Origin: Phycisphaerae bacterium
Lineage (GTDB): Bacteria > Planctomycetota > Phycisphaerae > Sedimentisphaerales > Anaerohalosphaeraceae
Assembly (NCBI GenBank): GCA_012729675.1
Contig: JAAYCR010000023.1
Span: 1-57,882, forward strand
Reading direction: 5' to 3'
Length of the DNA: 57,882 nucleotides
In this document: one piece after another, positions 3,373 through 44,686 of the stretch
Position numbering within the stretch: the stretch's first letter is position 1
Layout of the letters: the number at the start of each line of letters is the position of its first letter
The notes under the pieces: model-generated
The model's input: only the letters and a program-made list of their open reading frames with translations
Database searches by the model: none
What the model was told of the DNA's origin: nothing
Position numbers and translations under genes: made by a program

Positions 3373-5088
3373 ATGCAAAAAAAACAACGACATTTGGGTG
3401 AAATCCTGTACCGCAAGGGATTTGTCGATAAAAATAACCTCATCCGCGCTCTGAAAAAAGCCAAAGACACCAAGAAACGGCTGGGGGAGACCCTGCTGGA
3501 GATGGGGTTGGCGACTGAGGATCAGATTACCGAAGCCTTGGCCAAGCAGTTTAATCTTGAGTATGTCAATCTTGATGAAGTTGAAATCCCGCAAAGTGCG
3601 TCTAAACTCATTCCCGAAGAATTGGTCAAAAAACATCGTGTTGTGCCGCTGGGGCAGGATAATGGTGAACTGAAGGTCGCCATCAAAGACCCGATGGATT
3701 TGGATTTGCTGGATTTGCTTCGGTTCCGGCTAAACACCGAATTGCGGTGTTGTCTGGCAAGTCCGAGCAAGATTGAGACCTTAATCAACGGCAAAATGGA
3801 CGCGGTGCGGAGCAGTATCGACGCGACGGCGGCGGAATTGGCGGCCGCTGGACACACGATTGAGGCGGAAGTCCGCCGGGCACAGGCCACGGATGAAAGC
3901 GACGAAGGCCCCATTATCCGGCTTGTCAACCTGATTATCGACGAGGCCGTGAAGATGCGTGCCAGCGATATTCATATCGAGCCGATGGCCGACCGGGTGC
4001 GGGTGCGGTATCGTATTGACGGTGTTTGTGTCGAGCGCGACAATATTCCCAAAAATATGCAGGCGCCGATGCTGGCGCGTGTAAAAATCCTGTCGGGGAT
4101 GGATATCGGCGAACGCCGGCTTCCACAGGACGGACGTATCAAGCGTACCATCGAAAAACAGGACATCGACTTTCGTGTGTCGTGTCTTCCCGGCTATCAC
4201 GGCGAAAGTACGGTGCTTCGTATTTTACGGCCGGACTCGGTCAATATCGGTATTCAGGCCATCGGGTTTGAGTCCGAAGACTATCAGCGATTTACCAAGA
4301 TTATCAAACGTCCCAACGGCATCTTTCTGGTTACCGGACCGACGGGTTCGGGTAAAACCACGACGCTGTATTCGGCGCTGCAGGAACTGAACCGTCCCGA
4401 CAAAAAGATTATTACCGCCGAAGACCCGGTCGAATACAACATTGCCGGCATCAATCAGTGTCAGGTGCGAACGGACATCGGGTTGACCTTTGAATCGATT
4501 CTTCGCTCGATGCTGCGTCAGGCGCCGAATATCATTCTGATCGGTGAAATTCGTGACGGCATTGTGGCCGATATTGCGATTCAGGCGGCGCTGACCGGTC
4601 ACTTGGTGTTCAGTACGCTTCACACCAATGACGCCCCCAGCGCCATTACGCGGTTGATCGATATGGGCGTCAAGCCATTTCTTGTGGCCAGTTCGATTCA
4701 GGCAATTATGGCTCAGCGTCTGGTGCGTGTGATTTGTGAAAACTGCAAAGTGGTGGATCCGTCTCCCGATCCGCATTTTCTGCGTTTGCTGAATATTACG
4801 CCGGATGAACTGCGTAAGCATCCGGCTTATAAAGGCGCCGGGTGCAATCGCTGTCAGGGGACGGGGTATCGCGGCCGAATCGCGGTGTTTGAAATGCTTG
4901 AGATGAACAATCAGATTCGGGAATTGGCGTTTGCCCGCGCTCCGTCCGGCGAATTGCGAAAAGCGGCGGTCGCCAGCGGAATGAAGACGCTTTTGCAGGA
5001 CGGACGCATCAAGGTTTTCAAGGGCACTACAACGCCGGCCGAGATCTCGCGAGTAACCCAGGCTGAAGGGCTTGTGATGGATGCATAA
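3373..5088 (+). CDS. GspE/PilB-type assembly ATPase (first copy)
   Basis: Hexameric cytoplasmic ATPase that powers pseudopilus or pilus extension. The 571 residues contain an N-terminal MshEN/GspE_N domain (about 5-150), the N2E domain with ASDIHIEP and RYRIDG, a Walker A GPTGSGKTT near residue 322, an Asp box EDPVEY, Walker B GEIRD, the His box TGHLVFSTLHTND, and a tetracysteine zinc site (CENC ... CNRCQGTGYRGR) typical of GspE/PilB. A usual RQDPD before Walker B reads RQAPN here. The start at 3373 has AAAGG four bases upstream. It is first of a 16-kb same-strand run with pilT, a second ATPase, gspF and pseudopilins. Assignment to GspE rather than PilB is not possible from sequence alone. 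Confidence 0.93.
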   Translation: MQKKQRHLGEILYRKGFVDKNNLIRALKKAKDTKKRLGETLLEMGLATEDQITEALAKQFNLEYVNLDEVEIPQSASKLIPEELVKKHRVVPLGQDNGELKVAIKDPMDLDLLDLLRFRLNTELRCCLASPSKIETLINGKMDAVRSSIDATAAELAAAGHTIEAEVRRAQATDESDEGPIIRLVNLIIDEAVKMRASDIHIEPMADRVRVRYRIDGVCVERDNIPKNMQAPMLARVKILSGMDIGERRLPQDGRIKRTIEKQDIDFRVSCLPGYHGESTVLRILRPDSVNIGIQAIGFESEDYQRFTKIIKRPNGIFLVTGPTGSGKTTTLYSALQELNRPDKKIITAEDPVEYNIAGINQCQVRTDIGLTFESILRSMLRQAPNIILIGEIRDGIVADIAIQAALTGHLVFSTLHTNDAPSAITRLIDMGVKPFLVASSIQAIMAQRLVRVICENCKVVDPSPDPHFLRLLNITPDELRKHPAYKGAGCNRCQGTGYRGRIAVFEMLEMNNQIRELAFARAPSGELRKAAVASGMKTLLQDGRIKVFKGTTTPAEISRVTQAEGLVMDA

Positions 5089-5129
5089 ATATTATGGTTA
5101 TTATCTTAATATAGAATAATAGGATTATT

Positions 5130-6260
5130 ATGGCGACACTTCATATTGACCGATTACTGGAAGCCTGCATCAAAATGGGAGGCTCTGACCTTCATATTGT
5201 GGTCGGGCGTCCGCCGGTGCTGCGTATGTCGGGCCGGTTGCGTTCGCTCGACACCAAAGTGCTTGAGCCGGATGACACGGTAGCCCTGATGAAGAGTATT
5301 ACCCCCGAACGTAACCAGCAGGAACTTCAGGAAGTCGGCGGGACGGACTACGGTTTTGCATTCGGGGATGCGGGGAGATTTCGTACCTCGGTGTTTCGCC
5401 AAAAAGGCAATATTTCGATGGTGCTTCGTCTGATTCCTTCAGATCTGCTCAGCTTTGAGCAAATCGGTCTGCCGACGATCTGCGCCTCGCTGTGTCGCCG
5501 TCCGCGCGGGCTGTTTTTGGTGACCGGGCCGACCGGCTCCGGTAAGACGACCACGCTGGCGTCGATGATCAATTATATCAATGAGACCCTCGACCGGCAT
5601 ATTATCACCGTCGAAGAGCCAATTGAATACTATCACCAGCATAAAAAATCGGTCATTGTTCAGCGTGAAGTGGGTCTGGATGTGCCTTCGTTTGCCGAGG
5701 CGCTTCGCCGGGCGCTGCGTCAGGACCCGGACGTGATTCTGGTGGGCGAATTGCGCGACCTTGAAACGATGGAAGCGGCCATTAGTGCTGCCGAAACCGG
5801 CCACTTGGTGTTTGGGACGCTGCACACCACCGGCTGCCAGGGAACAGTCAACCGTATCATTGATGCCTTTCCGGTCAGTCAGCAGGAGCAAATTCGTGTT
5901 CAGCTCAGTACCAACCTCATTGCGGTACTCAGTCAGACCTTGTGTCCCCGCAAAGGGGGCGGGCGGGTGGCGGCCTACGAATTTATGGTCGTGACGCCGG
6001 CGATTGCCAATCTGGTTCGCGAAAACAAAGTGTATCGTATTGAGTCCAGTATCCAGATCGGCAGAAAACTCGGAATGCAGCTTTTGGACGATCATTTGTG
6101 GGAGCTTTATGAAAAAGACTTAATTGATCTTGAGGAGTTGGTAGATAAGTCCAGAAATCCGGCAGACATGATGGAGAAGGCTGAAAAGAGAGCGGGTGGA
6201 TCTGTTAAGGCGAAAAAGAAAATTGAAGATGAATATGGGGCGGTTTTAAAGTCAGGATAA
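5130..6260 (+). CDS. pilT: PilT-type retraction ATPase
   Basis: Twitching-motility ATPase of 376 residues (family about 340-380). It has the short PilT N-domain with GGSDLHI near residue 17, Walker A GPTGSGKTTTLAS near 133, the Asp box EEPIEYYHQHKKS, Walker B RQDPDVILVGELRD and the His box TGHLVFGTLHT. It lacks the GspE_N domain and the zinc tetracysteine of the flanking ATPases, which is what separates PilT from PilB/GspE. In type IV pili PilT depolymerises the fibre, so its place between two assembly ATPases argues that the structure encoded here is retractable. Ribosome site AGGA precedes the ATG. The last ~35 residues are charged and Lys-rich, beyond the usual PilT core. Confidence 0.92.
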   Translation: MATLHIDRLLEACIKMGGSDLHIVVGRPPVLRMSGRLRSLDTKVLEPDDTVALMKSITPERNQQELQEVGGTDYGFAFGDAGRFRTSVFRQKGNISMVLRLIPSDLLSFEQIGLPTICASLCRRPRGLFLVTGPTGSGKTTTLASMINYINETLDRHIITVEEPIEYYHQHKKSVIVQREVGLDVPSFAEALRRALRQDPDVILVGELRDLETMEAAISAAETGHLVFGTLHTTGCQGTVNRIIDAFPVSQQEQIRVQLSTNLIAVLSQTLCPRKGGGRVAAYEFMVVTPAIANLVRENKVYRIESSIQIGRKLGMQLLDDHLWELYEKDLIDLEELVDKSRNPADMMEKAEKRAGGSVKAKKKIEDEYGAVLKSG

Positions 6261-6274
6261 GTCCGTGATACATC

Positions 6275-6339
6275 CCAAAAATTTGAGTTTGTGGACACTT
6301 CTTGTTTGTATGCCAAGTGTCCATATATTTTTGGTTTTT
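6275..6339 (+). terminator. Hairpin after pilT, possible terminator
   Basis: Nested inverted repeat: CCAAAAAT (6275-6282) pairs with ATTTTTGG (6327-6334), and inside it TGGACACTT (6292-6300) pairs with AAGTGTCCA (6315-6323), followed by a T-rich tract. It sits just after the pilT stop codon. A third copy of AAGTGTCCA at 6457-6465 in the same 305-base gap means a regulatory reading is also possible. Nearer the next gene, TAGGAGT/ACTCCTA (about 6524-6545) could form a small hairpin holding a decoy ribosome site. Confidence 0.45.
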
Positions 6340-6565
6340 AAATTGCACAAAAAAGCTAAATATGTTTAATTATTGCGACTGAGTATTGTTTTATTCGGCT
6401 TATTATATTTTATGTAAATATTACGGATGTTTGACCGGATAGATGTTCAGTAAGTCAAGTGTCCACCAAAAACAAAGTTGCTTTTTTTGTATAAGGTCCG
6501 TATAAATTAGTAGTTGTAGTAGTAGGAGTTGACTGTTTACTCCTAACATTATGGAGAGCTTTAAA

Positions 6566-8314
6566 ATGGCTAAGACACCTCCAGTAAGCGAACTAAAGGG
6601 TCGTTCCCTTGGTCGAGTACTCATAAAAATGGGCCTTTTGACTCGCGAAAAGGTTCATGAGGGTCTTGTTGTGCAGAAGGAGCGAGGCGGTAAGATTAAG
6701 CTCGGACAAATCTTTATTGAGATGAATCTCATTAAGCCGAAAGATTTGCGAATTGCGTTGGCCGGGCAGCGAGGGATGGAATATGTCGAAATAGAAGGGC
6801 TTGACATACCCAATTCTGTCATTGAGACAGTGCCGGCTCAAATGGCTCGCACGTATCGGATTATTCCCATTCAGCATGACAAATCCCGCAACCGTCTGAC
6901 GGTTGTGATGGAAAGCCCCGATAATTTTCGCGCCATCGACGATCTTAACACCCTGATGGGGTTTGCGGTGGACGCGAAAGTCGCCGATGAAGACGCCATC
7001 ACGGCTGCGCTGGACAAGTACTACACAGAGGAAGAATCCAGTTTTAATGAATTGATCGGCGAGATTGAATCGGATGCTTCGCTGACCCAATTCCAGGGGC
7101 GCGACCAGAGCATCGACCTGGATGACCTAAAGGAAATGGCCGATTCCGGCGGGGTCAAGAAGCTGCTGAACCTTGTGCTGCTGCAGGCGATTCGCGACAA
7201 GGCGTCGGATATTCATTTTGAGCCGTTCGAGGACGAATATAAGATGCGATATCGTATCGACGGCGTCCTGTATGAAATGGTTCCGCCGCCCAAGCACATT
7301 GCGATGGCCCTGAGCAGCCGTATCAAGGTTATGGCCAATCTGGACATTGCCGAGCGACGATTGCCGCAGGATGGGCGTATTCCGCTGGTGGTGGGGGGCA
7401 ACCCGGTGGATTTGCGTGTCAGTATTTTGCCGACGATGTTCGGCGAGAGCGTCGTGCTGCGTGTGCTCGACCGGTCGCAGGTGGACTTGCAGCTCGATAT
7501 GATCGGCTTGCGTGAACATGAACTGAAAATGGTTCGGCAGTTGATTCACAAGCCCAACGGGATTATCGTGGTGACCGGGCCGACCGGTTCGGGCAAGACC
7601 ACGACGCTGTATTCCTGCCTGAAAGAACTGAACGATACCCAAACCAAGATCATCACGACGGAAAACCCGGTCGAATACGACATCGACGGGATGGTCCAGG
7701 TGCAGATTCGCCCGGAGATCGGATTGACGTTTGCCAAGTGCCTGCGGTCGATTTTGCGTCAGGATCCGGATATTTGTATGGTCGGCGAAATTCGCGACCT
7801 CGAAACGGCCGAAATTTCGATTCAGGCGTCGCTGACGGGCCACCTAGTGTTCACAACGCTGCACACCAATGACGCCCCCAGCTCGATTGCGCGTTTGCTG
7901 GATTTGGGAGTTGAGCCGTTTTTGGCCACGGCCACACTTGAAGGCATTCTCGCGCAGCGCCTGGTGCGGCGTATTTGCGTCAATTGCAAAACCGAATTTC
8001 GCCCAACCGAAGAACAACTGATGGAGTTGAACCTGATGCCCGAAGACGTCGGCGACAAGTCCTTCTTTTACGGCAAGGGTTGCGATCAGTGCAACAACAC
8101 CGGCTATCGCGGGCGACAGGGGTTGTTCGAGATCATGGCGATGAATGACGAACTTCGCGATCTGGTGATGAACCACGCGTCAACGTCCGTGTTGCGCGAG
8201 GCGGCCAAGCGTAGCGGGATGCATACATTGCGCGAGAACGGGCTGGCGTCGATCTTTGACGGCATAACGACCATTGAAGAGGTCGTCCGTGAGACGCTGG
8301 CGGCGGAAGAATGA
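6566..8314 (+). CDS. GspE/PilB-type assembly ATPase (second copy)
   Basis: Second extension ATPase, 582 residues from the chosen start. Domain order matches the first copy: GspE_N (about 10-150), N2E with ASDIHFEP and RYRIDG, Walker A GPTGSGKTTTLYS near residue 336, EIRDLET Walker B, TGHLVFTTLHTND, and a CVNC ... CDQCNNTGYRGRQG zinc site. Here the canonical RQDPD is intact, unlike the first copy. The ATG at 6566 was chosen over 6551 because GGAG lies nine bases before it; that GGAG overlaps the upstream ATG. It runs into gspF after 96 bases, so this copy is the more likely partner of GspF and the pseudopilins. Confidence 0.93.
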   Translation: MAKTPPVSELKGRSLGRVLIKMGLLTREKVHEGLVVQKERGGKIKLGQIFIEMNLIKPKDLRIALAGQRGMEYVEIEGLDIPNSVIETVPAQMARTYRIIPIQHDKSRNRLTVVMESPDNFRAIDDLNTLMGFAVDAKVADEDAITAALDKYYTEEESSFNELIGEIESDASLTQFQGRDQSIDLDDLKEMADSGGVKKLLNLVLLQAIRDKASDIHFEPFEDEYKMRYRIDGVLYEMVPPPKHIAMALSSRIKVMANLDIAERRLPQDGRIPLVVGGNPVDLRVSILPTMFGESVVLRVLDRSQVDLQLDMIGLREHELKMVRQLIHKPNGIIVVTGPTGSGKTTTLYSCLKELNDTQTKIITTENPVEYDIDGMVQVQIRPEIGLTFAKCLRSILRQDPDICMVGEIRDLETAEISIQASLTGHLVFTTLHTNDAPSSIARLLDLGVEPFLATATLEGILAQRLVRRICVNCKTEFRPTEEQLMELNLMPEDVGDKSFFYGKGCDQCNNTGYRGRQGLFEIMAMNDELRDLVMNHASTSVLREAAKRSGMHTLRENGLASIFDGITTIEEVVRETLAAEE

Positions 8315-8318
8315 TTTG

Positions 8319-8353
8319 GATTGAGAATTGAGAATTTAGAATTAAGAAATGAA
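8319..8353. repeat. Degenerate heptamer tandem repeat
   Basis: Five 7-base units of the form AATTGAG/AATTTAG directly after the stop codon of the second ATPase gene, in the gap before gspF. Confidence 0.7.
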
Positions 8354-8410
8354 GTGTGTTGCGTTTCGGGGAAATGTAACGATTCGGGACGTAATTGAAA
8401 GGTATTAACA

Positions 8411-9667
8411 ATGCCAGTTTTTCAATATACCGCGTTGGACGCCAACGGCAAAGAGGTCAAGGCGGATATCGAGGCGCTCAGCAGTAAAGAGGCCATCAGC
8501 AAGATCCGCAACAAAGGCCTGTTTCCGACTAAGGTGCGTGCCCAGAACGCCGCCAAAAAGGTCAAGGCCGCGGCGGCGGCGGGGCCGACCCGACGGCGCG
8601 GCACCAACGCCAAGGTCAAGCTCAAACGCGTGACGCAATTTGCCCGGCAGATGGCAACGCTTCAGGATGCCGGTCTGGCGATTCTGCGATCGTTGCGGAT
8701 TCTCGAAGAGCAGGAAAAACCCGGTTCCTTCAAGCGGATCATCGGCTATGTCGCCGAGGACATCGAAGGCGGCGCGACGTTGTCGGAGGCGATGGGCAAG
8801 TACCCGCGCTGCTTTAACCGGCTGTTTGTCAACATGGTGGCCGCCGGCGAGGTGGGCGGCGTGCTGGACGTGATTCTTAACCGCGTGGCCGACTTTATGG
8901 AAAAGAGCGAAAAGCTCAAGTCCAAGGTCAAAGGCGCGTTGGTATATCCGGTGGTGGTACTGTTTGTGGCGTTTGTGATCGTGATGGGACTGATGATTTT
9001 TATAATTCCGACGTTTTCGGAAGTGCTGTCGGAGATGAGCGACGGGAAAGCCAAGTTGCCCGCCCTGACGCGAGGCCTGCTGGCAATGAGCAACTGGCTG
9101 CAGGGGCGGAAAGGCCTCAACGCCGGAATCGTGGCGACCTTGCCCTTTCTTGTTGTCGCGCTCTTTCGCCTGCTGCGGAAGTTTTACTACAGCCGCTTCG
9201 GGATGGACTGGCTGATGCTGCGTCTGCCGGTGATCGGCAAGGTGTCTTACAAGACCACCGTCGCCCGCTGGACGCGCACGTTGGCGACGCTGATCAGCGC
9301 CGGTGTGCCGATTCTTGAAGCCCTCAACATCACCCGCGAAACCAGCGGCAACGAGGTGTATGCCCGCATGCTGGCCAAGGTGCACGCCGCCATCCGGCAG
9401 GGCGACACCTTCGCCAATCCGCTTCGCCAGACCAAAACCGTTGACGCCATCGTCGTCAATATGGTCGATGTCGGCGAGGAGACGGGCGATCTGGACAAGA
9501 TGCTGATGAAAGTGGCTGACAACTTTGACGAAGAAGCCGACGTGCTGGTCGGCTCGCTGATGAGCATGCTCGAACCGGTGCTGATCGTGTTCCTGGGTAT
9601 GGTTGTCGGGACCATTGTGGTGGCGATGTTTATGCCGATGGTGACAATGATGCAGGTGATGATGTAA
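8411..9667 (+). CDS. gspF: GspF/PilC inner-membrane platform protein
   Basis: Polytopic inner-membrane protein on which the assembly ATPase acts. At 418 residues it has the GspF/PilC layout: N-terminal segment beginning with F-Q-Y-T-A-L-D-A-N-G-K, a first T2SSF domain (about 75-195) ending in a hydrophobic segment near 180-200, and a second T2SSF domain (about 275-395) followed by a C-terminal membrane segment with PVLIVFLGMVVG. The motif FxRQMATLQDAGL at the start of domain 1 and WTRTLATLISAGVP at the start of domain 2 are typical. A Lys/Ala/Arg-rich linker near residues 45-65 precedes domain 1. AAAGG upstream of the ATG. It is the only F-type gene, although there are two assembly ATPases. 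Confidence 0.95.
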   Translation: MPVFQYTALDANGKEVKADIEALSSKEAISKIRNKGLFPTKVRAQNAAKKVKAAAAAGPTRRRGTNAKVKLKRVTQFARQMATLQDAGLAILRSLRILEEQEKPGSFKRIIGYVAEDIEGGATLSEAMGKYPRCFNRLFVNMVAAGEVGGVLDVILNRVADFMEKSEKLKSKVKGALVYPVVVLFVAFVIVMGLMIFIIPTFSEVLSEMSDGKAKLPALTRGLLAMSNWLQGRKGLNAGIVATLPFLVVALFRLLRKFYYSRFGMDWLMLRLPVIGKVSYKTTVARWTRTLATLISAGVPILEALNITRETSGNEVYARMLAKVHAAIRQGDTFANPLRQTKTVDAIVVNMVDVGEETGDLDKMLMKVADNFDEEADVLVGSLMSMLEPVLIVFLGMVVGTIVVAMFMPMVTMMQVMM

Positions 9668-9678
9668 CAGATTCAACT

Positions 9679-9845
9679 GCGGATTTCGCGGATTGACACG
9701 GAGATATGTATGTTAAAAGTCAAATGTAAAATGTTAAATGTGTGGGACATTCTTACATCTTGTTTTTTTCTTCGTGCTCTTCGTGTGCTTCGGGGTTCAG
9801 ATCTTTTTCGTTTGAGATAATTTGTGTTAATTTGTGACTAAAAAT
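9679..9845. repeat. Cluster of short tandem repeats before the first pseudopilin gene
   Basis: The gap after gspF is built from small tandem arrays: period 9 (GCGGATTTC/GCGGATTGA, 9679-9705), period 7 (AAATGTA/AAATGTT/AAATGTG, 9715-9742), period 9 (CTTCGTGCT/CTTCGTGTG, 9770-9796) and period 10 (AATTTGTGTT/AATTTGTGAC, 9819-9838), the last leading to the ribosome site of the next gene. Confidence 0.65.
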
Positions 9846-9865
9846 AACTTGAAAGGAAAAAAACA

Positions 9866-10819
9866 ATGAAGCGAACACAACACAACAACGCGTTTACCAT
9901 CGTCGAACTGCTGACGGTGATGGCCGTGATCGCACTGCTGATCGGCCTGCTCGTGCCGGCACTGGCCCTGGTCAAAGACCGCGCCAAAGACATCCAGCAG
10001 CGGGCACAGTTCCATAGTATCAGTGTAGGACTGGAGATGTTCAAAACAGAATTTGGCGACTACCCAGATTCATTTGATAATATCGCCCCAACTACTCCAG
10101 CTGCCATTGCCCCATTGATTCAAGATACTGCTAATTATGGTGGTGCCCAAAAAATGGCGGAAGGGTTGGTGGGATTCGATCTCCTTGGGGTACACCCCAA
10201 AGCTGGTTTTCGCTCGAATGGGCAGAATTATTTTCCAGAACCGATAAACGGCTATCTGAACATTTATGACACAGTCAACGGGATTAATGCAGGCACACTT
10301 TATAATGAAGTAGATGGTTATGCAAACATCAATGCGAGAAAAGGACCGTTTGTTGATCTAGAAAATGCCAATGCTTTTCAGATGCAAGATGTGTATGGCA
10401 CCAATACAGCGGGCTTCAACCATCTTAACGTTGTTCTTTGTGATGTTTACGCGAAATCAAGAACCTCTGGTAAAAAAACCGGGATGCCGATTCTGTATTT
10501 CAAAGCGGATGCAGGAAACGCGCTACAAAACTACTCCGTTGATGGGAATTATGAAAACGACATATACAATTTTGACGACAATTATGCTTTGTTGAGCCTT
10601 GGTTCGGCTCAAGCAAATTCATTTCCGCACGAAGTAATGGTGGGCGGAACCGATGAATATATAAATTTTGAAAATATTGTGCTGAATCAGCAGGTTTTTA
10701 GTGCCAGTGGTGTGCGGCGTCCATATCGTGCGGGTTCGTTTATTTTGTGGTCTGCGGGCAAAGACGGGATTTTTGGTACCGGAGACGATGTATTAAACTT
10801 TACCAAAGAGGCCGAATAG
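9866..10819 (+). CDS. GspG-like pseudopilin, large form (paralogue 1)
   Basis: Secreted fibre subunit with a type III prepilin leader: short basic leader ending NNA, then FTIVELLTVMAVIALLIGLL, with Glu at mature position 5. It is cut after Ala rather than the usual Gly. The 317 residues are about twice a normal GspG; the extra mass follows the helix. Shared blocks with the genes at 11660 and 12664 are FHSISVGLEMF, ARKGPFVDLENANA, KTGMPILYFKADA, YNFDDN and the C-terminal SAGKDGIFGTGDDVLNF, the last resembling the Asp-rich calcium site of GspG. AAAGGA ribosome site. Likely a major or specialised pseudopilin; exact role unknown. Confidence 0.85.
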   Translation: MKRTQHNNAFTIVELLTVMAVIALLIGLLVPALALVKDRAKDIQQRAQFHSISVGLEMFKTEFGDYPDSFDNIAPTTPAAIAPLIQDTANYGGAQKMAEGLVGFDLLGVHPKAGFRSNGQNYFPEPINGYLNIYDTVNGINAGTLYNEVDGYANINARKGPFVDLENANAFQMQDVYGTNTAGFNHLNVVLCDVYAKSRTSGKKTGMPILYFKADAGNALQNYSVDGNYENDIYNFDDNYALLSLGSAQANSFPHEVMVGGTDEYINFENIVLNQQVFSASGVRRPYRAGSFILWSAGKDGIFGTGDDVLNFTKEAE

Positions 10820-10857
10820 TTCGTTTTGAGTGGCATTTAGAACCGTGATTTGGGAAA

Positions 10858-10880
10858 CGGTGGGCACGGCCCACCCTGCG
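10858..10880. repeat. Palindromic intergenic unit
   Basis: GGTGGGC/GCCCACC perfect 7-bp stem around a 3-base loop, falling at the extreme 5' end of the next pseudopilin reading frame. The same kind of unit occurs widely as a dispersed intergenic palindrome in other genomes, from memory. Confidence 0.45.
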
Positions 10881-10888
10881 GAACGATT

Positions 10889-11551
10889 TTGAATACAGGT
10901 ACGCCAACAATTCGTCCATCGTCCATCGTCCATCGTCCCTGTCGAGGGTTTACGCTGGTGGAGCTGCTGGTGACGCTGGCGGTGGTGGTGATTCTCATCA
11001 GCGCTGCCGCTCGGCTGGGCGGCTATGTGCGTACCCGTGCGGCCGTGCAGTTGACCGAAAGCGCCCTGGCCGTGATCGATACGGCGCTGGAGCAGTATTA
11101 TGCGGACTTCGGAAAGTTTCCATTTGGTACCGATACTGTCCCTGCCGGCGGTGACGGTATTTCGGATCCATATTTGAGGAATCATCTGGAAGCCGATCTT
11201 GACGGAATGGTCAATCCGGTTTTGCCTTTGACGGAAAAGGATGGCCAAAATGCAGATCAGTCTTTTGCGTCCAGTGCGGGTCTGTTTTGGTTTTTGCATC
11301 GTGCTCCGAACAGTCGGTCGATCATAGACGCCCTGACGCCTTCGCTTGTAACGGCCAAATATCCGCAAACACAGCAGCATTTAACGGTCACGGTCGTCGG
11401 AGGCGTTACTTACGACCTTCCTCGTTTTGTTGATCCGTGGGGGATGAGTTTGCGGTATGAGTATGCCCCCAAAGCGGATGTGTTTCCGCGGGTGATCTCG
11501 GCCGGGCCGGATAAGATATTCGATTCGCCCGACGACATCGAGAACAAGTAA
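10889..11551 (+). CDS. GspG-like pseudopilin (short form)
   Basis: Prepilin-like protein of about 220 residues: leader ending CRG, then FTLVELLVTLAVVVILISA with Glu at mature position 5. The mature part keeps a YYADFGKFP segment, VDPWGM, and a C-terminal SAGPDKIFDSPDDIE that matches the Asp-rich ending of its neighbours and of GspG. It is the closest in size to classical GspG and could be the true major pseudopilin. The start is unsure: a TTG at 10850 or a TTG at 10889 are the only in-frame options before the leader, and neither has a good ribosome site. The leader region contains four perfect CGTCCAT-type heptamers (10913-10940), so repeat sequence has become coding here. Confidence 0.78.
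   Translation: MNTGTPTIRPSSIVHRPCRGFTLVELLVTLAVVVILISAAARLGGYVRTRAAVQLTESALAVIDTALEQYYADFGKFPFGTDTVPAGGDGISDPYLRNHLEADLDGMVNPVLPLTEKDGQNADQSFASSAGLFWFLHRAPNSRSIIDALTPSLVTAKYPQTQQHLTVTVVGGVTYDLPRFVDPWGMSLRYEYAPKADVFPRVISAGPDKIFDSPDDIENK
10913..10940. repeat. Heptamer tandem repeat inside a pseudopilin leader
   Basis: Four units, three identical CGTCCAT and one CGTCCCT, in tandem. They lie within the codons just before the prepilin cleavage site of the gene starting near 10889. Confidence 0.8.
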
Positions 11552-11557
11552 ATAATA

Positions 11558-11630
11558 ACCATGAAGCTCATGAAGAACAGGAAGAAAAATATTTTAGTTA
11601 AGACTTCATGCTCTTCACGTTCTTCATGGT
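11558..11630. repeat. Inverted pair of period-9 repeats
   Basis: Left arm 11558-11584 is ACCATGAAG/CTCATGAAG/AACAGGAAG; right arm 11604-11630 is its approximate reverse complement (about 21 of 27 positions). A 19-base AT-rich loop separates them. Could fold as a hairpin between two pseudopilin genes. Confidence 0.65.
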
Positions 11631-11659
11631 AAAGTTTGTTTCAAGAAAAGGAAACGACA

Positions 11660-12580
11660 ATGCAGGACAGACGAAAACAGATGCGGACAAGCGGGTTTAC
11701 GCTGATTGAACTGCTGGTGGTGGTGGCGATTATTGCGATGCTGGTGGCGATCTTCAGCGTCGGGAGCAAAAAGATTCGGATCATCAGTTTCGGCCTGCAG
11801 CAAAAGTCCGTCTTTCACGCGATGACGGTTGGGCTGGAACTGTTCAGCGGCGATTTTGACGGCTATCCGGACTCGCGGACGCGCGCCTCAAGCGGCGGGT
11901 CGATTACCGGCGCCCAGCATCTGACCGAGGCCCTGCTGGGGCGGGATGAGCGGGGCTTTGATCGGCTGACGCGATGGACGCCGCCGGACGACAATACGCC
12001 CAGCAGCGATCTGTATTCGAATGATCCGGCCAGTCTGGCCCGACGGCGTGCCCCGTATTGCGAGATCAAGTACGGCCAGGTGCTGACGATTCACGATCTG
12101 TGGGGGCCGCAGGCCGGTATTTATGATTCCGGCCCAACTCCGGTCGGTTTTCAGCGGTCGCCGGTGATTACGGATGTGTTCGCCCAGAACGACGCCGTCG
12201 CGGGGGGGCGCGTGGGGATGCCGATACTGTATTTTAAGGCCGATGCGTCCAAGCCGCGGTTTCGCGTCGATGCCGCACGCCAAACGGTTGACAATCCCGA
12301 CCTGACGCAATACGGCGATTGGGTGTATAACTTTGATGACAACCTGCCGATCTTGAACCTGCCGTGGCTGCGCGATCCCGGTGCGGTCTGGGACGGGCAT
12401 TTTTCCGATCCGGACAATGCCGGGCGGAATCCGGCACAGATGTTTTACGAGCAGATCACCCAGCAGGCCAATCCGGATCAGGGATTTTACAGGCCGTATA
12501 ACGGCGCGACGTTTATCCTGATCTCGGCCGGGTGGGACGGGATATTCGGGACGAAAGATGATATTGTGAATTTTGATTAA
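11660..12580 (+). CDS. GspG-like pseudopilin, large form (paralogue 2)
   Basis: Prepilin-like protein of 306 residues. Leader MQDRRKQMRTSG, cleavage before FTLIELLVVVAIIAMLVAI. The mature region carries the same blocks as paralogues 1 and 3: FHAMTVGLELF, QHLTEALLGRD, GMPILYFKADA, YNFDDN and the ending SAGWDGIFGTKDDIVNF, where the Asp/Gly spacing suggests a metal site. The ATG at 11660 is preferred over 11636 because AAAGGA sits eight bases before it and it gives a normal leader length. Sequence between the shared blocks differs strongly among the paralogues, so they probably occupy different positions or cargo roles. Confidence 0.85.
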   Translation: MQDRRKQMRTSGFTLIELLVVVAIIAMLVAIFSVGSKKIRIISFGLQQKSVFHAMTVGLELFSGDFDGYPDSRTRASSGGSITGAQHLTEALLGRDERGFDRLTRWTPPDDNTPSSDLYSNDPASLARRRAPYCEIKYGQVLTIHDLWGPQAGIYDSGPTPVGFQRSPVITDVFAQNDAVAGGRVGMPILYFKADASKPRFRVDAARQTVDNPDLTQYGDWVYNFDDNLPILNLPWLRDPGAVWDGHFSDPDNAGRNPAQMFYEQITQQANPDQGFYRPYNGATFILISAGWDGIFGTKDDIVNFD

Positions 12581-12585
12581 TAAGG

Positions 12586-12645
12586 AACCACAGATTTCAC
12601 AGATGACACAGATAAAAATCAGTGAAATCGGCGTAATCTGTGGTT
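12586..12645. repeat. Inverted intergenic repeat, ACCACAGATT type
   Basis: Perfect 11-bp arms AACCACAGATT (12586-12596) and AATCTGTGGTT (12635-12645), with period-9 tandem copies of CACAGATNN inside. The right arm runs into the ribosome site of the next gene. Related units occur at 13640-13656, 14333-14351, 15224-15256 and 41710-41763. Confidence 0.7.
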
Positions 12646-12663
12646 TCAAAAAAGGAAATGATT

Positions 12664-13539
12664 ATGCAGACTCGAAACAGAACAATTCGGGCGTTTACGC
12701 TGGTGGAGGTGTTGACGACGGTGGCCATTATCGGCATCCTGCTGGCGGTGCTGATCCCGGCGCTTAATCAGGTCGGCAAGTCGGCGCTGGTGGTCAAGCA
12801 GAAGGCGCAGTTTCACACCATCGAGATGGCACTGGAGGCTTTCCGCAGCGATGTCGGGTTTTACCCGCCGAGTGTGTGGGATGCACATCTTCCTGACAGT
12901 AAATATGGATATTATTCTGCCTCTCAGCGGCTGGCCGAGGCGATCATCGGACGCGACGGTTTTGGTTTTCATACGAGTTCACAATTTCGCGCGGACGGAA
13001 ACGGGTATGACGATCTCGGTAATCTGGTTCCGCTTTATGCCCCGGTTGTTGATCTTACGGCCAATCCTGACAATCTGGCAGCACGAAAAGGCCCGTATCT
13101 TGAACTTGAATCCGCCAATGCCGTTCAATTGGGCCAATATTCAACGAACTATGGCGCCTTGGTCAATCCTCTCAGCTATGTGCTGGCGGATGCCTTCAAG
13201 ACCGCCAAATTAACCACCGGCCGCAAGACGGGGATGCCGATTTTGTATTACAGGGCAGACCGCTCCAAGGCAGGACATAATGCAGCGACACTGGATGCAA
13301 ATACGTACAATGTAATGGATGGTATCAATATGGCCACGGTACCGGGTCCCTTGCAGTCCCAGCATCCGTTTTACCCGCTTTATTCTGACCACAGTTGGTT
13401 TTATCACAAGACGCTTAACCCGAACTTTACGAATCCTCCGCGGCCGTATCGGGCGGAGTCGTTTATATTGCACAGCGCCGGCCCGGACGGGAAGTTTGGC
13501 ACGGCGGACGATCTCTTTAATTTTGACGAAGGAAACTAA
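12664..13539 (+). CDS. GspG-like pseudopilin, large form (paralogue 3)
   Basis: Prepilin-like protein of 291 residues. Leader MQTRNRTIRA, then FTLVEVLTTVAIIGILLAVL; as in paralogue 1 the residue before the cleavage point is Ala, not Gly. Shared paralogue blocks: FHTIEMALEAF, QRLAEAIIGRDGFGF, ARKGPYLELESANA, KTGMPILYYRAD and SAGPDGKFGTADDLFNF. The internal YNFDDN block is not preserved. AAGGA eight bases before the ATG at 12664 decides the start; an upstream in-frame GTG at 12640 lies inside the intergenic repeat. Probably exported and assembled by the same F/E machinery. Confidence 0.85.
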   Translation: MQTRNRTIRAFTLVEVLTTVAIIGILLAVLIPALNQVGKSALVVKQKAQFHTIEMALEAFRSDVGFYPPSVWDAHLPDSKYGYYSASQRLAEAIIGRDGFGFHTSSQFRADGNGYDDLGNLVPLYAPVVDLTANPDNLAARKGPYLELESANAVQLGQYSTNYGALVNPLSYVLADAFKTAKLTTGRKTGMPILYYRADRSKAGHNAATLDANTYNVMDGINMATVPGPLQSQHPFYPLYSDHSWFYHKTLNPNFTNPPRPYRAESFILHSAGPDGKFGTADDLFNFDEGN

Positions 13540-13574
13540 GTTCAGTTATCAGTAATCAGTCAACAGTAATCAGT
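13540..13574. repeat. Degenerate heptamer tandem repeat
   Basis: Five units of the form TATCAGT/AATCAGT/CAACAGT starting one base after the stop codon of the preceding pseudopilin gene. Further on, 13604-13656 holds period-9 units (AATCCTGTT/AATCCTGTC and AATCCGCGG/AATCCGCGG). Confidence 0.72.
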
Positions 13575-13663
13575 AATGGAATTGGACACGGAACGTATAA
13601 AAATCCTGTTAATCCTGTCCAAAAAAAGAATCGGTGTAAATCCGCGGAATCCGCGGTTTCAAA

Positions 13664-14254
13664 ATGAAGAATCAACGGCGACAATTTGGGTTGACCTTGA
13701 CCGAGCTGCTGGTGACGGTGGCGGTCGCGGCGGTGCTGATGGCGTTGGCCGTGCCCGCGGCCCGGCGCATCACCGAGACGATGCGCGATTCGGCCGGGGC
13801 ACGTGCCCTGATCGGCGCCGCACTCAACAACGCCCGCGCCATCGCCGTCCGCGAGGGCCGATACGCCGGCGTTCGCTTCCAGCAGACCGCCGACGGGAAG
13901 ACGTACATGATCTTTATTGTCCACGATCCAAGCTCTGTGGCGGAGGAGGGAACGGGATTGGCCAACGGGTTTCGGCCGGTCAAAGGCCGCAAACCCATTC
14001 TGCTGCCTGACGACTTCCGATTGGCGCCCGGCGGTCAGACGTCTTTTTATTCGATTGTTTTTTCGCGCGCCGGCAGACTGACGGTGCATCCCGTGCGATA
14101 CAAAGCGACGCTTTCGTTCGGCGATCTTGAGATTTCAGACGATACGCAGGATGTTGAAAGTGTCAACGTGATCTCGGTGTTCGATACGCTTGCGCCCGGC
14201 GATTTGCGAATCACAAGGATCAGCCCTTATACGGGGGAGTTGATCGGTGAATGA
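13664..14254 (+). CDS. GspH-like minor pseudopilin
   Basis: Prepilin-like protein of 196 residues with leader MKNQRRQFG and LTLTELLVTVAVAAVLMALA, then a segment ALIGAALNNARAIAVREGR that matches the GspH/FimT pattern of a second helix carrying the S/N-x-A-R-x-x-A motif. The first mature residue would be Leu rather than Phe. GspH is one of four minor pseudopilins that initiate or cap the pseudopilus. The ATG follows directly on a period-9 repeat and has no clear Shine-Dalgarno. Order after it (I, J, K-like) supports the assignment. Confidence 0.8.
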   Translation: MKNQRRQFGLTLTELLVTVAVAAVLMALAVPAARRITETMRDSAGARALIGAALNNARAIAVREGRYAGVRFQQTADGKTYMIFIVHDPSSVAEEGTGLANGFRPVKGRKPILLPDDFRLAPGGQTSFYSIVFSRAGRLTVHPVRYKATLSFGDLEISDDTQDVESVNVISVFDTLAPGDLRITRISPYTGELIGE

Positions 14255-14383
14255 TAAAAAGTAAAAAAATAAAAGGAAAAAGGCAAAAGTGCGGAGCCGC
14301 CTTTGGCGGAATTGTTTTGATGGTTTGTTTCTGTGTAATCGGTGGTTTCAGGATTCCCGCCTTCGCGGGAATGACAAGGTACG

Positions 14384-15226
14384 ATGTATAAACGCAGGCG
14401 ACAATTTGGGTTTTCGCTTCTTGAGGCGTTGATGGCCACGGGCATCCTCGGCATGGGGCTGGTCTTGATCGCGATGGTCTTTCCCGTCGGCATCAAGCTG
14501 ACCGGCACCTCGACCGAACGCACCATCGGCGCGATCGCGGCCAACGAGGCGTTTGCCAAGATACAGTTGTGGGGCATACGGGATTATGATCAATGGACAA
14601 AGATCAATCCGACTGACGACCCATTTCAGATGTGTTTTGATTATCGCCATGTGGTCAATCTACCAAATCCAGCGCAACCGCTGAATTTTATCGATGTCCA
14701 GAGCGATTGGCCGGAGTTTCAGTATCCGTCTATTACGATCCCTGCCGGGCAGGAGCCGCACAAATACCACTGGTCGGCGCTGTGCCGGGCGGTCGATGCC
14801 CAGCAGGTGCAGGCGACGGTTTTTGTGACGCGGAGAGCGGGCGAGGGGCTGCTGTATTATACTCAGGCAGGGGGGCAGGATGGTCTTTGGCCCTCGCCGG
14901 TGCAGGTCAATGTGAAAATGGGCGGAAACAGTCGAGAGTTGGAAGTTTTGACCGACACATGGGGGACGGATGTGTTCGGTTTCTTTGGTGACAATTCGAC
15001 CATTGTGGCCAACCATGACGGGCGGATTTATCGTGTGCTGGAATATAAAGCCGTCAACTATGAAGCCGTCGGCGACACGCCCACAATCAAAAATACACTG
15101 GTGTTGACTGAAGACTGGCTGCCGCCGCTTGGTCTGACTTCGTGGACAATCTGGGTTGTTCCGCCGGGGGTAGGCAGTATGCGCAATCCGGTGATTAGCG
15201 TTGTCCAGAAAACCTTAACATTTTAA
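14384..15226 (+). CDS. GspI/PilV-like minor pseudopilin
   Basis: Prepilin-like protein of 280 residues: leader MYKRRRQFG, then FSLLEALMATGILGMGLVLI, the F-S-L-L-E-A-L/M pattern of GspI and PilV. The remainder shows VMVFP-type residues and a long beta-rich region without a recognised domain, much longer than the ~100 residues after the helix in GspI. AAGG precedes the ATG by five bases. It stands in the expected H-I-J-K order. GspI interacts with J and K at the pseudopilus tip in the known systems; that role here is inferred from order and leader only. Confidence 0.78.
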   Translation: MYKRRRQFGFSLLEALMATGILGMGLVLIAMVFPVGIKLTGTSTERTIGAIAANEAFAKIQLWGIRDYDQWTKINPTDDPFQMCFDYRHVVNLPNPAQPLNFIDVQSDWPEFQYPSITIPAGQEPHKYHWSALCRAVDAQQVQATVFVTRRAGEGLLYYTQAGGQDGLWPSPVQVNVKMGGNSRELEVLTDTWGTDVFGFFGDNSTIVANHDGRIYRVLEYKAVNYEAVGDTPTIKNTLVLTEDWLPPLGLTSWTIWVVPPGVGSMRNPVISVVQKTLTF

Positions 15227-15229
15227 TCG

Positions 15230-16342
15230 GTGAAATCGGTGAAATCGGTGGTTTCAAAAAAAGCGTTTACGATTGTCGAATTGCTGGTGGCGATGGGGCT
15301 GGTGGTGATCCTGGTCGCGCTGTCGAGCCTGATTTTTGCCGCGGGCGTCAAGGCGCATCGACTGGCCGATTCGACCATCGAGATCACCCGCCGGGCCGAG
15401 GCGGTCAGCCGTCAGTTGGTTGCCGACGTGGGCGGTCTGCGGACGGATGCGCCGCTGGCGATCTGGTTTGAGCACGATCCAGCCACCGGCAAACGTTATG
15501 ACCAGATTCTCTTTTTCGCCAACGGCGATTTCCAGACGATGCGGCAGTACAACGGCCAAACCGTCAGCGGCAACCTGTCCCGCATCTACTACGGCCATGC
15601 CTGGCAGGTCAATACCGACATCAATGCGGTTCCGACAGCCTTTACTGCGCAGTATCGGCAGTCCGGTCTGCTCTCTCGCCGTGCGCATCTGCTAACTTCG
15701 AATTTAACTTTGACGTATCCCGGTATTCCAACCCCTTTCCCTAATGGGACAACACCGGACTTTTTTGCGGCTACTTTTTTTCCTTATACTAACAACCGGT
15801 CGGAGTACGATCAGTTATCGCTGGCCGAGTGGAAGAATCTGATGCAAACGCAGGACAATTGCAACCAGATGCTGCAAATCTGCTTCAATAACGGTACCAA
15901 TGTATCAGATACCGGTCGCCCGATGATCGACATGACAAATATCGACACGCTGCATTTGCTGCTGAGCGAGCAGATCAGCGAATTCAAAGTCCAATGGGCC
16001 TTTAAGAGCGAAGATTTGATAGATATTTCTACCGGGAATCCTTTCCTTCCCGATCAGTTGTTCAGCGGGCTTCTCTGGTGGCCGGAAAGTGGCGATTTGC
16101 TCAGCTTTGTCGAACAAAGAAGAGGCGTCTTTTTCAATATGCCAGGCATTGTGCCACCACCCGCTGATGTGACACCGCCGGATGAATGGGATCCTGTGTC
16201 GGCATGCAAGTACTCACCGATGATTGTTTTTTCGCCGACGTATGTTCCCCGGGCGTTGAAGTTCACGTTTACGGTCCATGACGCCAAGGGGTTGTTTCCG
16301 GAAGGCAAGACGTTTACGCAGATTGTGAAGATTGATAATTGA
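15230..16342 (+). CDS. GspJ/PilW-like minor pseudopilin
   Basis: Prepilin-like protein of up to 370 residues with leader ending KKA and FTIVELLVAMGLVVILVAL, followed by RRAEAVSRQLVADV, as in GspJ/PilW where an amphipathic helix follows the membrane helix. The mature region is about 150 residues longer than a typical GspJ. Three in-frame GTG codons (15230, 15239, 15248) are possible starts; all three lie inside a period-9 repeat unit, so the repeat supplies the first codons of the leader. It starts only four bases after the stop of the upstream gene, pointing to translational coupling. Confidence 0.78.
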   Translation: MKSVKSVVSKKAFTIVELLVAMGLVVILVALSSLIFAAGVKAHRLADSTIEITRRAEAVSRQLVADVGGLRTDAPLAIWFEHDPATGKRYDQILFFANGDFQTMRQYNGQTVSGNLSRIYYGHAWQVNTDINAVPTAFTAQYRQSGLLSRRAHLLTSNLTLTYPGIPTPFPNGTTPDFFAATFFPYTNNRSEYDQLSLAEWKNLMQTQDNCNQMLQICFNNGTNVSDTGRPMIDMTNIDTLHLLLSEQISEFKVQWAFKSEDLIDISTGNPFLPDQLFSGLLWWPESGDLLSFVEQRRGVFFNMPGIVPPPADVTPPDEWDPVSACKYSPMIVFSPTYVPRALKFTFTVHDAKGLFPEGKTFTQIVKIDN

Positions 16343-16343
16343 T

Positions 16344-16371
16344 AGAAGTCAGGAGTCAGGAGTCAGAATTT
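16344..16371. repeat. Heptamer tandem repeat
   Basis: Four units (AGAAGTC, AGGAGTC, AGGAGTC, AGAATTT) one base after the stop codon of the GspJ-like gene; followed at about 16383-16402 by a period-10 TTAATTGGTG/TTAATTTGTG repeat. Confidence 0.75.
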
Positions 16372-16420
16372 TTGAATTGTGGTTAATTGGTGTTAATTTG
16401 TGGCTAAAAATGGTGTCTCC

Positions 16421-19249
16421 ATGAACACGACAAAACGACAATCTGTTCGGCGGCAGGGCGGGTCGGCCTTTATTCTCGTGGTGGTGGTTACCGTGCTGCT
16501 GGCGGTAATCGGGTTGATGTTTGTGATGGTCGCCCGCCTCGGCGAGATGGGGTCATCAGCGGTTGTCGATAACGCCGACCTGGACGCCGCTGTCCAGACG
16601 GTGGTCAGCCGTATTAACACCGCCCTGGTTGCAGACCTCTTCGGCGCCGACGGCGTCATTGGGTCGGATGGCCCGCATTACACCTGGCCGGGCGTTGCAC
16701 GAGGCGATGACCCGCTTACCGGGGATCGAATCGTGCCCTGGCTGGCCGACCTGGAGCCGAACAGCCTGAACAGTTTTCAGTGGGAACATATAACGGATCT
16801 GCTCGCCCCTGACAATCCGACGGCTTTTGTCGGAACCCTCCTCACGGGCATCATTCCCGACAACCCCAAAACGGTTGTTTTGGGTACCGCCGCTGATGCT
16901 TCCGGTGACGGCGTGGCCGACAGCATCTGGATTCGCATGCCGAACGCCTCGACCAGCCGCGGAAAACCCGTCTTCGCCGCCATCCGCATCATCGACAATT
17001 GTGCCATGCTCAATCTCAATACGGCCTATTGTTTTTACCAAACGCCCTATAATTCTACAACACCCATATCTCCATTTTCCAAATTTTGGTATCTGAACCA
17101 AACGGCTCACGGCAATGGCATCGCGTATGAGGGGACAGCGATTTCCTCAAGCACACCGTATGGCAATGGCGGTCGTTACTTGACGGAAATCAATTATTTA
17201 TCGTTTCTGCGCGGTAGCGATCTTGGCTCGATTTGGGGCGGTGGCGATGGATGGTACAATATCGCTATCGCAAAAAAGTTTTCTTGGCTGAATACCTCAT
17301 CGCAGATAGTTTCAGTCACACCTGAACAGGCACATGTCGCTATCCTGTCCATTGAAAATCCACCGTTGCATCCTGCCATCCTGCCTCAGACTCGCTTTTC
17401 TTTTTTTGATATTGGCGATGAATTAGAGATTCGCAATCGATATCTTCTGACGTCGAGAACGGAATCGCGTTTTGAACGGCATGACATTGCTAACTATACA
17501 CTGGATTCGGGAAGTACTGATTATGCAGCGTTGAAAGTGCCCCGTGACAACAGCAGTAATCCAATATCTTTATGGCATGAACGTGTCAATATTGCCAATT
17601 TTGACAGGTGGGACTTAAATGGCGAATTATATGGTGTTGGAGAGAATATCCCTTATAAATACGACCGGCGGCATATCAGCACGTTTTACAGTTTTGATCG
17701 TCCGCTGCGAACGGGTCAGTACCCCAAGCTTGAAATGGATGCGGTGATTCACGGCCTGACGCCGGTGCAGCTTGCGGTATTTATGCCGGACAAGGCGATG
17801 CCGATTGATTTGCGAACCGCCGATATCACAGACGCCACGACGAAAGTCCAGTTACTGTATGCCTTGCGTGAAGTCTATGATGCTCAAAAAGCGGCACAGA
17901 TTGTTGTCAATCTGATGGATTATGTGGACAGCGACAATGAAGTGAGTATTCTGAATACAGAACGCATTTCCGCTTATATTTTTGCGGCGGGCGGCGGAGT
18001 ATCGGGCATGGCGATGGCAAATGATTTCGGTCTGGGCGACGCCGTCGTCTATGGCTATGAACGTCAGCCGTTTATTTCGGAGATTTATTGCTTCCGCAAT
18101 ACAGAAACCGGAGTGGTGGAGGCTTTTGCGCTGGAACTGGTCAATCCTTATCGAGATCAAATCGATTTGAACGGTTGGCGGGTGCGCGTTGGCACGATGG
18201 CTCCTTTTAATTTAAGTGGAGCCGAGTATTACGTCCCTGCGGCAACGGGCGATCAGCCGGAACAATACGGGCGGTTGGTGATCTGGTCAGGATCGGTTTT
18301 AATCTCCGGTGGTGGACATAGTGTAGAACTTCCGGGATTTGGAACCGGGTTTTTGGGTAATTCGATTGTGCGACTCCAACGACCTGATCCTGTACCATTG
18401 GATCCTGCAGATCCCTATCTGACGGTGGATCGTACCCATTCCGATCAATCTCGTATGATGTTTGACCAAGAAGGCGGACGTAGCAGTAAACGCGATGACA
18501 GGCAGTGGAGATTTACCAATCAAGCGGCATTTGTTGTCGATTCCACAACAAGGATCGGCAGACATAATGCCGTTTCCGATATGTCTTTGAAGGGCTATCA
18601 ACTGCCGGTACTCAATGAGGGCGAGCCGATTGAGCGGCTGGCTGATTTTATCAGGGTGGCGTTTGTGTCAAATACCGGGGGGGATGATCCGAATACCATT
18701 ACCGAACTGATTGCCGATGCCGAAGACGAGGCGGATATCCGGTACGATATGGAGGCGGCGCCGGATCTGCTGGATTACATCTGCTTTTTGAATCGACCGG
18801 ACCAAGGCTCGCTGCCGGGGCGTATCAATATCAATACGGCGGCGCTTCATGTGATCGCCGCCGCCATTCCGCCGCAATTGGTGATGGCCGCAGCCGACGA
18901 TGCCGAACATGCCTTGTACCTGGCCGAGCAGATTGTCGCCAATCGTCCGTATGAGCGGGTCAGCGACTTGTTGCGGATCAATGCGTTTAAGAAGTTCACC
19001 GCAACCGGTACCCCGAACGTGGGGGATCAGGGGGTTGAAGGGGATTTTGAGGAGCGCGACTGGATTGTGTCGCGTTTGGCGAATATCTTTACTGTTCGCA
19101 GCGACACCTTTACGGCTTATATTCTCGTGCGGCTGGGCGATGACGGCCCGCAGCGGCGGATGATCGCGATCTTTGACCGCAGTCAGGTCTGGACGCCGAG
19201 TGACTGCCCGCGTCTGGTCGCCCTGCATCCTGTGCCGGAAGCACGATAG
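16421..19249 (+). CDS. GspK-like minor pseudopilin, very large
   Basis: 942 residues from ATG 16421 (a GTG at 16400 inside a repeat is the alternative); typical GspK is 300-350. The leader is MNTTKRQSVRRQGGSA, then FILVVVVTVLLAVIGLM, lacking Glu at mature position 5 as GspK does. The C-terminal third has GRININTAALHVI and YERVSDLLRI, the helix-hairpin-helix-like pattern of the GspK SAM domain. In the middle (about residues 545-640) lies a block with FISEIYCF, EAFALELVNPYRDQIDLNGW and LVIWSGS that resembles a lamin-tail (LTD) beta-sandwich. In known systems K caps the pseudopilus tip with I and J, so extra domains may contact cargo or surface. The LTD call is by pattern only. Confidence 0.75.
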   Translation: MNTTKRQSVRRQGGSAFILVVVVTVLLAVIGLMFVMVARLGEMGSSAVVDNADLDAAVQTVVSRINTALVADLFGADGVIGSDGPHYTWPGVARGDDPLTGDRIVPWLADLEPNSLNSFQWEHITDLLAPDNPTAFVGTLLTGIIPDNPKTVVLGTAADASGDGVADSIWIRMPNASTSRGKPVFAAIRIIDNCAMLNLNTAYCFYQTPYNSTTPISPFSKFWYLNQTAHGNGIAYEGTAISSSTPYGNGGRYLTEINYLSFLRGSDLGSIWGGGDGWYNIAIAKKFSWLNTSSQIVSVTPEQAHVAILSIENPPLHPAILPQTRFSFFDIGDELEIRNRYLLTSRTESRFERHDIANYTLDSGSTDYAALKVPRDNSSNPISLWHERVNIANFDRWDLNGELYGVGENIPYKYDRRHISTFYSFDRPLRTGQYPKLEMDAVIHGLTPVQLAVFMPDKAMPIDLRTADITDATTKVQLLYALREVYDAQKAAQIVVNLMDYVDSDNEVSILNTERISAYIFAAGGGVSGMAMANDFGLGDAVVYGYERQPFISEIYCFRNTETGVVEAFALELVNPYRDQIDLNGWRVRVGTMAPFNLSGAEYYVPAATGDQPEQYGRLVIWSGSVLISGGGHSVELPGFGTGFLGNSIVRLQRPDPVPLDPADPYLTVDRTHSDQSRMMFDQEGGRSSKRDDRQWRFTNQAAFVVDSTTRIGRHNAVSDMSLKGYQLPVLNEGEPIERLADFIRVAFVSNTGGDDPNTITELIADAEDEADIRYDMEAAPDLLDYICFLNRPDQGSLPGRININTAALHVIAAAIPPQLVMAAADDAEHALYLAEQIVANRPYERVSDLLRINAFKKFTATGTPNVGDQGVEGDFEERDWIVSRLANIFTVRSDTFTAYILVRLGDDGPQRRMIAIFDRSQVWTPSDCPRLVALHPVPEAR

Positions 19250-36683: not shown

Positions 36684-36728
36684 CTTGAAACTCCTTTCGT
36701 CAGACATAACATGCCTCCGTGGAAGCCA

Positions 36729-44675: not shown

Positions 44676-44686
44676 AGGGAAACGCA

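Follow-up and report, generated by a model that had tools for sequence, protein, structure and literature searches.

In the window, as we call the whole 57,882-nucleotide stretch of DNA that was analysed, a pilus/type II secretion system (T2SS)-type operon was found at positions 3373-19249, with the gene order pilB-pilT-pilB-pilC-A-B-C-D-H-I-J-K. The preliminary description of this DNA had singled out three genes in the middle of the operon, here named A, C and D, and both the genes and their coordinates were correct; the wider cassette and a fourth prepilin gene, B, located between A and C, had been overlooked. The encoded features are as follows.

3373..5088, + strand: assembly ATPase 1, PilB/GspE type (TIGR02538 PilB 606.8 versus GspE 565.3 bits; conserved position)
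5130..6260, + strand: PilT-family retraction ATPase (TIGR01420 447 bits, cut-off 319)
6551..8314, + strand: assembly ATPase 2, PilB/GspE type (TIGR02538 628.5 bits, TIGR02533 622.7)
8411..9667, + strand: inner-membrane platform protein PilC/GspF (PF00482 E 3.9e-63)
9866..10819, + strand: A, enlarged GspG-type prepilin (317 aa, Ala at -1)
10850..11551 (ORF as listed), + strand: B, shorter GspG-like prepilin with degenerate calcium motif (TIGR01710, PF08334 and profile match)
11660..12580, + strand: C, enlarged GspG-type prepilin (306 aa, Gly at -1)
12664..13539, + strand: D, enlarged GspG-type prepilin (291 aa, Ala at -1)
13664..14254, + strand: H-position minor prepilin (N_methyl; TIGR02596 E 4.2e-9, below cut-off)
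14384..15226, + strand: I-position minor prepilin, PilV/GspI-like (weak TIGR02523; position)
15230..16342, + strand: J-position minor prepilin (weak N_methyl motif; position)
16400..19249, + strand: K-position large prepilin, GspK-like, 949 aa (NF037980 GspK E 2.2e-5, below cut-off)

The combination of PilT, PilB and PilC by which a type IVa pilus is recognised is present in the cassette, and no gene for a secretin, GspC, GspL, GspM or PilM/N/O is encoded in it. The K-position protein is very large, with 949 aa here and ORFs of up to ~1330 aa in relatives, and is weakly recognised by GspK models. Given the match of H to protein D (TIGR02596) of the Verru_Chthon cassette, the H-I-J-K run (13664-19249) may be related to that cassette. 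Elsewhere in the window, the translations of 41785-45787 look like a Na+-translocating NADH:quinone reductase (Nqr) gene cluster, and that of 33624-36707 like a vitamin B12-dependent ribonucleotide reductase.

A separate cluster in the same genome (C91, L213) encodes a canonical GspG in a 149-aa ORF scoring 109 bits, above the GspG cut-off, together with an ATPase and a 1157-aa secretin ORF; seven secretins were counted in the genome in total. With a canonical GspG locus and these secretins elsewhere, the cassette looks like an additional machine and is most likely distinct from the canonical T2SS-type locus. A second T2SS, in which an A-D pseudopilus would push hydrolases through a secretin encoded elsewhere, would be in keeping with GspG-type subunits that have calcium loops and stand beside an H-I-J-K set, with the number of secretins and with the richness of the likely order of the window in secreted polysaccharide-degrading enzymes (PMC11131199). 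We regard this as quite improbable, since PilT is conserved in the cassette, whereas T2SS frequently lose it (PMC6668835), the PilB model outscores the GspE model for both ATPases, the cassette is without a secretin, GspC, L or M, and C91 already provides a canonical locus of T2SS type. PilM homologues are found at four loci of the genome outside the cassette. At one locus on another contig (L219, 9306-15076 of C49), a 797-aa ORF with a PilM domain is followed by two genes, of 444 and 651 aa, for which Pfam gave no match, and this locus is a candidate alignment complex for the enlarged-pilin cassette.

Sequence and predicted fold of the prepilins

A, C and D are homologous over their whole length. 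After removal of the first 32 residues, global alignment against shuffled sequences gave z values of 19.6 (A-C), 25.2 (A-D) and 19.1 (C-D), and in a three-way alignment identity to A was 34-39%. The claim of three large paralogous GspG-like pseudopilins was thereby borne out with respect to homology, and the mature size of ~280-310 aa versus ~130 aa for GspG agrees with the reported doubling. As described, two of the three proteins, A and D, carry Ala before the cleavage point, where C has Gly; Ala is also common at this place among relatives (39/105). The motifs FHxxxxxLExF, GMPILYxxAD and the C-terminal SAGxDGxFGTxDDxxNF are shared by all three, as had been stated, whereas the RKGP block is restricted to A and D and is replaced by RRAP in C. 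The leaders are of the class III prepilin type with Glu5 (AFTIVE in A, GFTLIE in C, AFTLVE in D), as is characteristic of type IV pilins and pseudopilins, and N_methyl matches were obtained in 48 of 51 relatives. The GC content of gene A is 0.41-0.45 in its last four fifths (10016-10819) against 0.59 at its start and an overall value of 0.53-0.60 in the other operon genes; this may possibly reflect recombination, or merely lax codon use.

Against the GspG equivalog model TIGR01710, whose cut-off is a whole-protein score of 88.85 bits, A, C and D reached 41.8, 20.4 and 42.2 bits, with the N-terminal part supplying the whole score. Likewise, A (15.3) and D (14.9) stayed below the gathering score of 21 of the Pfam T2SSG model PF08334, and C gave no match; the curated models recognise just the leader and helix of the three proteins. 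When the helix was removed, a soluble-domain profile of the enlarged family matched GspG with E 3.6e-7 over the calcium strand and loop, and outside the helix the sequence likeness was limited to the last 31 columns. A global hhalign of the family versus GspG was discarded, with the C-terminus misplaced.

These 31 columns correspond to the published PERCAL calcium motif, G-x-D-G-x-x-[GN]-[TN]-x-D-D. It was described for the E. coli GspG structure 3G20, in which calcium is bound by two aspartates of the motif (PMC3396595). Exact motif matches are located as follows.

10757..10789, + strand: PERCAL calcium-loop motif GKDGIFGTGDD of A
12530..12562, + strand: PERCAL calcium-loop motif GWDGIFGTKDD of C
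13480..13512, + strand: PERCAL calcium-loop motif GPDGKFGTADD of D

A strict match was also found in 97/108 relatives. The motif supports the presence of a GspG-type calcium site in A, C and D, at which calcium would be bound, and the earlier proposal that the Asp-rich end fits this site is upheld at the level of sequence.

For B, the true start is probably the TTG at 10889. B matched TIGR01710 with E 1.3e-8, below the cut-off, and PF08334 with 21.7, above the gathering score, and the B profile could be aligned with canonical GspG along the whole of B, over 128 columns that include DPWG (E 2.4e-21). Of the four prepilins A-D, B resembles canonical GspG most, and it could be the only major subunit.

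AlphaFold (AF2) modelling of D from a 42-sequence alignment yielded pLDDT 89.9 and pTM 0.85, and that of C from 50 sequences pLDDT 87.8 and pTM 0.86, the two models having a similar order of elements. Foldseek against the PDB gave no significant match, and the GspG likeness was obtained in a second look with VIA-align. The best VIA-align matches were 3g20, 3fu1, 3gn9, 4lw9 and 5o2y for D (Z 5.4-7.4, 102-112 residues) and 3g20, 3fu1, 4lw9 and 5o2y for C (Z 5.3-7.0, 100-108 residues). All of these are GspG structures, superposed at an rmsd of 2.5-3.9 A over 100-112 of the ~115 GspG residues. The Z values are below 8, a range that can mean a common arrangement only, and together with the Foldseek result this makes the fold supported rather than proven. 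Since the aligned range reaches the C-terminus of each model yet uses only ~105 residues, the remaining residues would be insertions within the GspG core. The models show, at moderate Z, the N-terminal helix, small beta core and C-terminal calcium loop that define the GspG fold, and support the view of D and C as GspG cores with large insertions. The calcium-loop match, which is independent of the models, points the same way. The two predicted structures are not unrelated beyond the N-terminal helix, the outcome that would have spoken against the earlier proposal. A BFVD search returned nothing significant, and a search of viral contigs with D revealed no relatives.

Distribution, conservation and age of the paralogues

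Within the order of the window, 139/161 genomes contained a match at E 1e-16 or better. In the family of the window, the order ATPase-PilT-ATPase-platform-A-B-C-D-H-I-J-K was present in every sufficiently covered locus, and the sister families of the same order mostly have two enlarged genes followed by B, with a single copy in one family (f2). A first profile built from three sequences had suggested confinement to one order; this was dropped when a deeper profile revealed that other families of the class have full-length members too, with several loci in the order ATPase-PilT-ATPase-platform-enlarged-enlarged-B. To remove the effect of the N-terminal helix, the soluble domain alone was used for a search of the phylum. 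In the 392-genome phylum sample, the full enlarged domain was not detected outside the class, a result based on limited candidates per genome, so that a rare distant member could escape; matches outside the class covered the calcium loop only, at the ends of ORFs, many of ~220 aa. An earlier scan of genome contigs had shown part of the enlarged domain in 1/80 loci (L094), the rest being swamped by N-terminal helix matches. Taking Phycisphaerae as the class and Sedimentisphaerales as the order is consistent with the distribution seen, and under that name for the class the restriction to Phycisphaerae considered earlier fits. At three loci (L265 of G582, L268 of G516 and L163 of G369), enlarged-pilin genes lie in unusually long frames of 435, 749 and 607 aa, respectively, which may be read-through ORFs or fusions.

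In a tree of 18 loci of the window's family, C and D formed single clades (SH-aLRT 100 and 99), and A was a near-clade that needs one further change. The enlarged pairs from other families of the class fell into separate groups, which implies that the duplication is old and possibly repeated. Further matches in the own genome covered the N-terminal helix region only, and silent partial copies were not found there. We conclude that the paralogy of A, C and D is old, with each gene kept in its position, and does not stem from a recent tandem burst. Of the proposed tandem duplication with diversification, the tandem paralogues thus stand, whereas recency is contradicted by the clades, the fixed positions and the high conservation of A and D. 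In its strongest form, that wording would make the genes recent duplicates under diversifying selection, a reservoir resembling those of antigenic variation. This is very improbable: the tandem arrangement, the variable mid-regions and the low GC in most of A would suit it, whereas the tree, the copy number and order fixed across the family and the lack of silent partial copies in the genome argue against it.

Across the family, median identity was highest among the prepilins for A (55.8%) and D (49.1%) and lowest for B (39.8%), and amounted to 72-82% for the motors and platform. Conservation of the kind seen in A and D is usual for filament-body subunits of T2SS, and the rank of A and D as the best-conserved prepilins is what would be expected of such subunits. 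It bears on the alternative in which B serves as the major subunit, with A, C and D as large modular pilins of low abundance that display binding modules on the filament or its tip. The full-length alignment of B with GspG agrees with that arrangement, the large insertions resemble the modular-pilin strategy (PMC8179133), and multiple copies differing in their mid-regions would fit a role in ligand binding. Nevertheless, we consider it unlikely, as no other prepilin matches A and D in conservation, with B coming last, and as the extra residues in the models appear to be spread through a single GspG core, with no separate terminal domain.

Proposed filament and comparison with known systems

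With moderate confidence, we favour A, C and D as main-body subunits, together with B, of a PilB/PilT-driven, calcium-stabilised type IV filament capped by H-I-J-K; that the three are different subunits, as suggested before, is plausible, and the surface roles suggested alongside are hypothetical. In each, a class III leader that can be cleaved off and a long N-terminal helix bearing Glu5 precede a predicted GspG core, which a C-terminal calcium loop closes; ~150 extra residues are inserted between the core elements and would form the outer surface of the filament. A, C, D and the GspG-like B would co-polymerise as body subunits of a single filament, assembled on PilC by the two PilB-type ATPases and presumably shortened by PilT, and the H-I-J-K minor pilins would cap it.

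The filament may serve attachment, or capture and secretion linked to polysaccharide feeding; either attachment/capture or secretion would fit the cassette. Pili of Planctomycetes have been proposed to act as fishing rods for polysaccharides (PMC8882080), and the cassette would bear on how these bacteria build such fibres. As a tentative extension, the cassette may represent a class-wide new branch of type IV filaments, a retractable, PilB/PilT-driven hetero-polymer of obligate, enlarged, calcium-locked GspG-type pilins, perhaps catching or importing polysaccharides.

Type IV pili and secretion pseudopili are commonly regarded as polymers built from one small major subunit. A conserved operon that encodes enlarged GspG-type subunits in two or three copies, another GspG-like subunit, two PilB and PilT would offer a natural way to test if obligate hetero-polymers occur among such filaments. 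The calcium loop makes folding testable with a single ligand, and the cassette can serve as a marker for locating the missing secretin and alignment complex.

With GspG/PulG/EpsG, the major pseudopilin of T2SS (PDB 3g20, 3fu1, 5o2y), A, C and D have the leader, the Glu5 helix, the predicted core and the calcium-loop motif in common. They differ from it in being about twice as long, with large insertions, and in failing the TIGR01710 and PF08334 cut-offs, and the cassette differs in having two or three paralogues per operon, plus PilT. Like the type IVa pilus machinery (PilB, PilT, PilC, PilA), the cassette has two PilB-like ATPases, PilT and PilC, whereas its pilins, calcium loop included, resemble GspG rather than PilA, and PilMNOPQ are absent from it. 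The Verru_Chthon cassette (TIGR02596, TIGR02599) shares a run of prepilin genes and the weak match of H to its protein D, but the scores stay below the cut-off. Neither an ATPase/PilT part nor enlarged GspG genes are known to belong to the Verru_Chthon model set. Enlargement by extra residues is also seen in the modular pilin PilB of Streptococcus sanguinis (PMC8179133), whereas in A, C and D the extra residues are interspersed in the predicted core, with no recognisable grafted domain.
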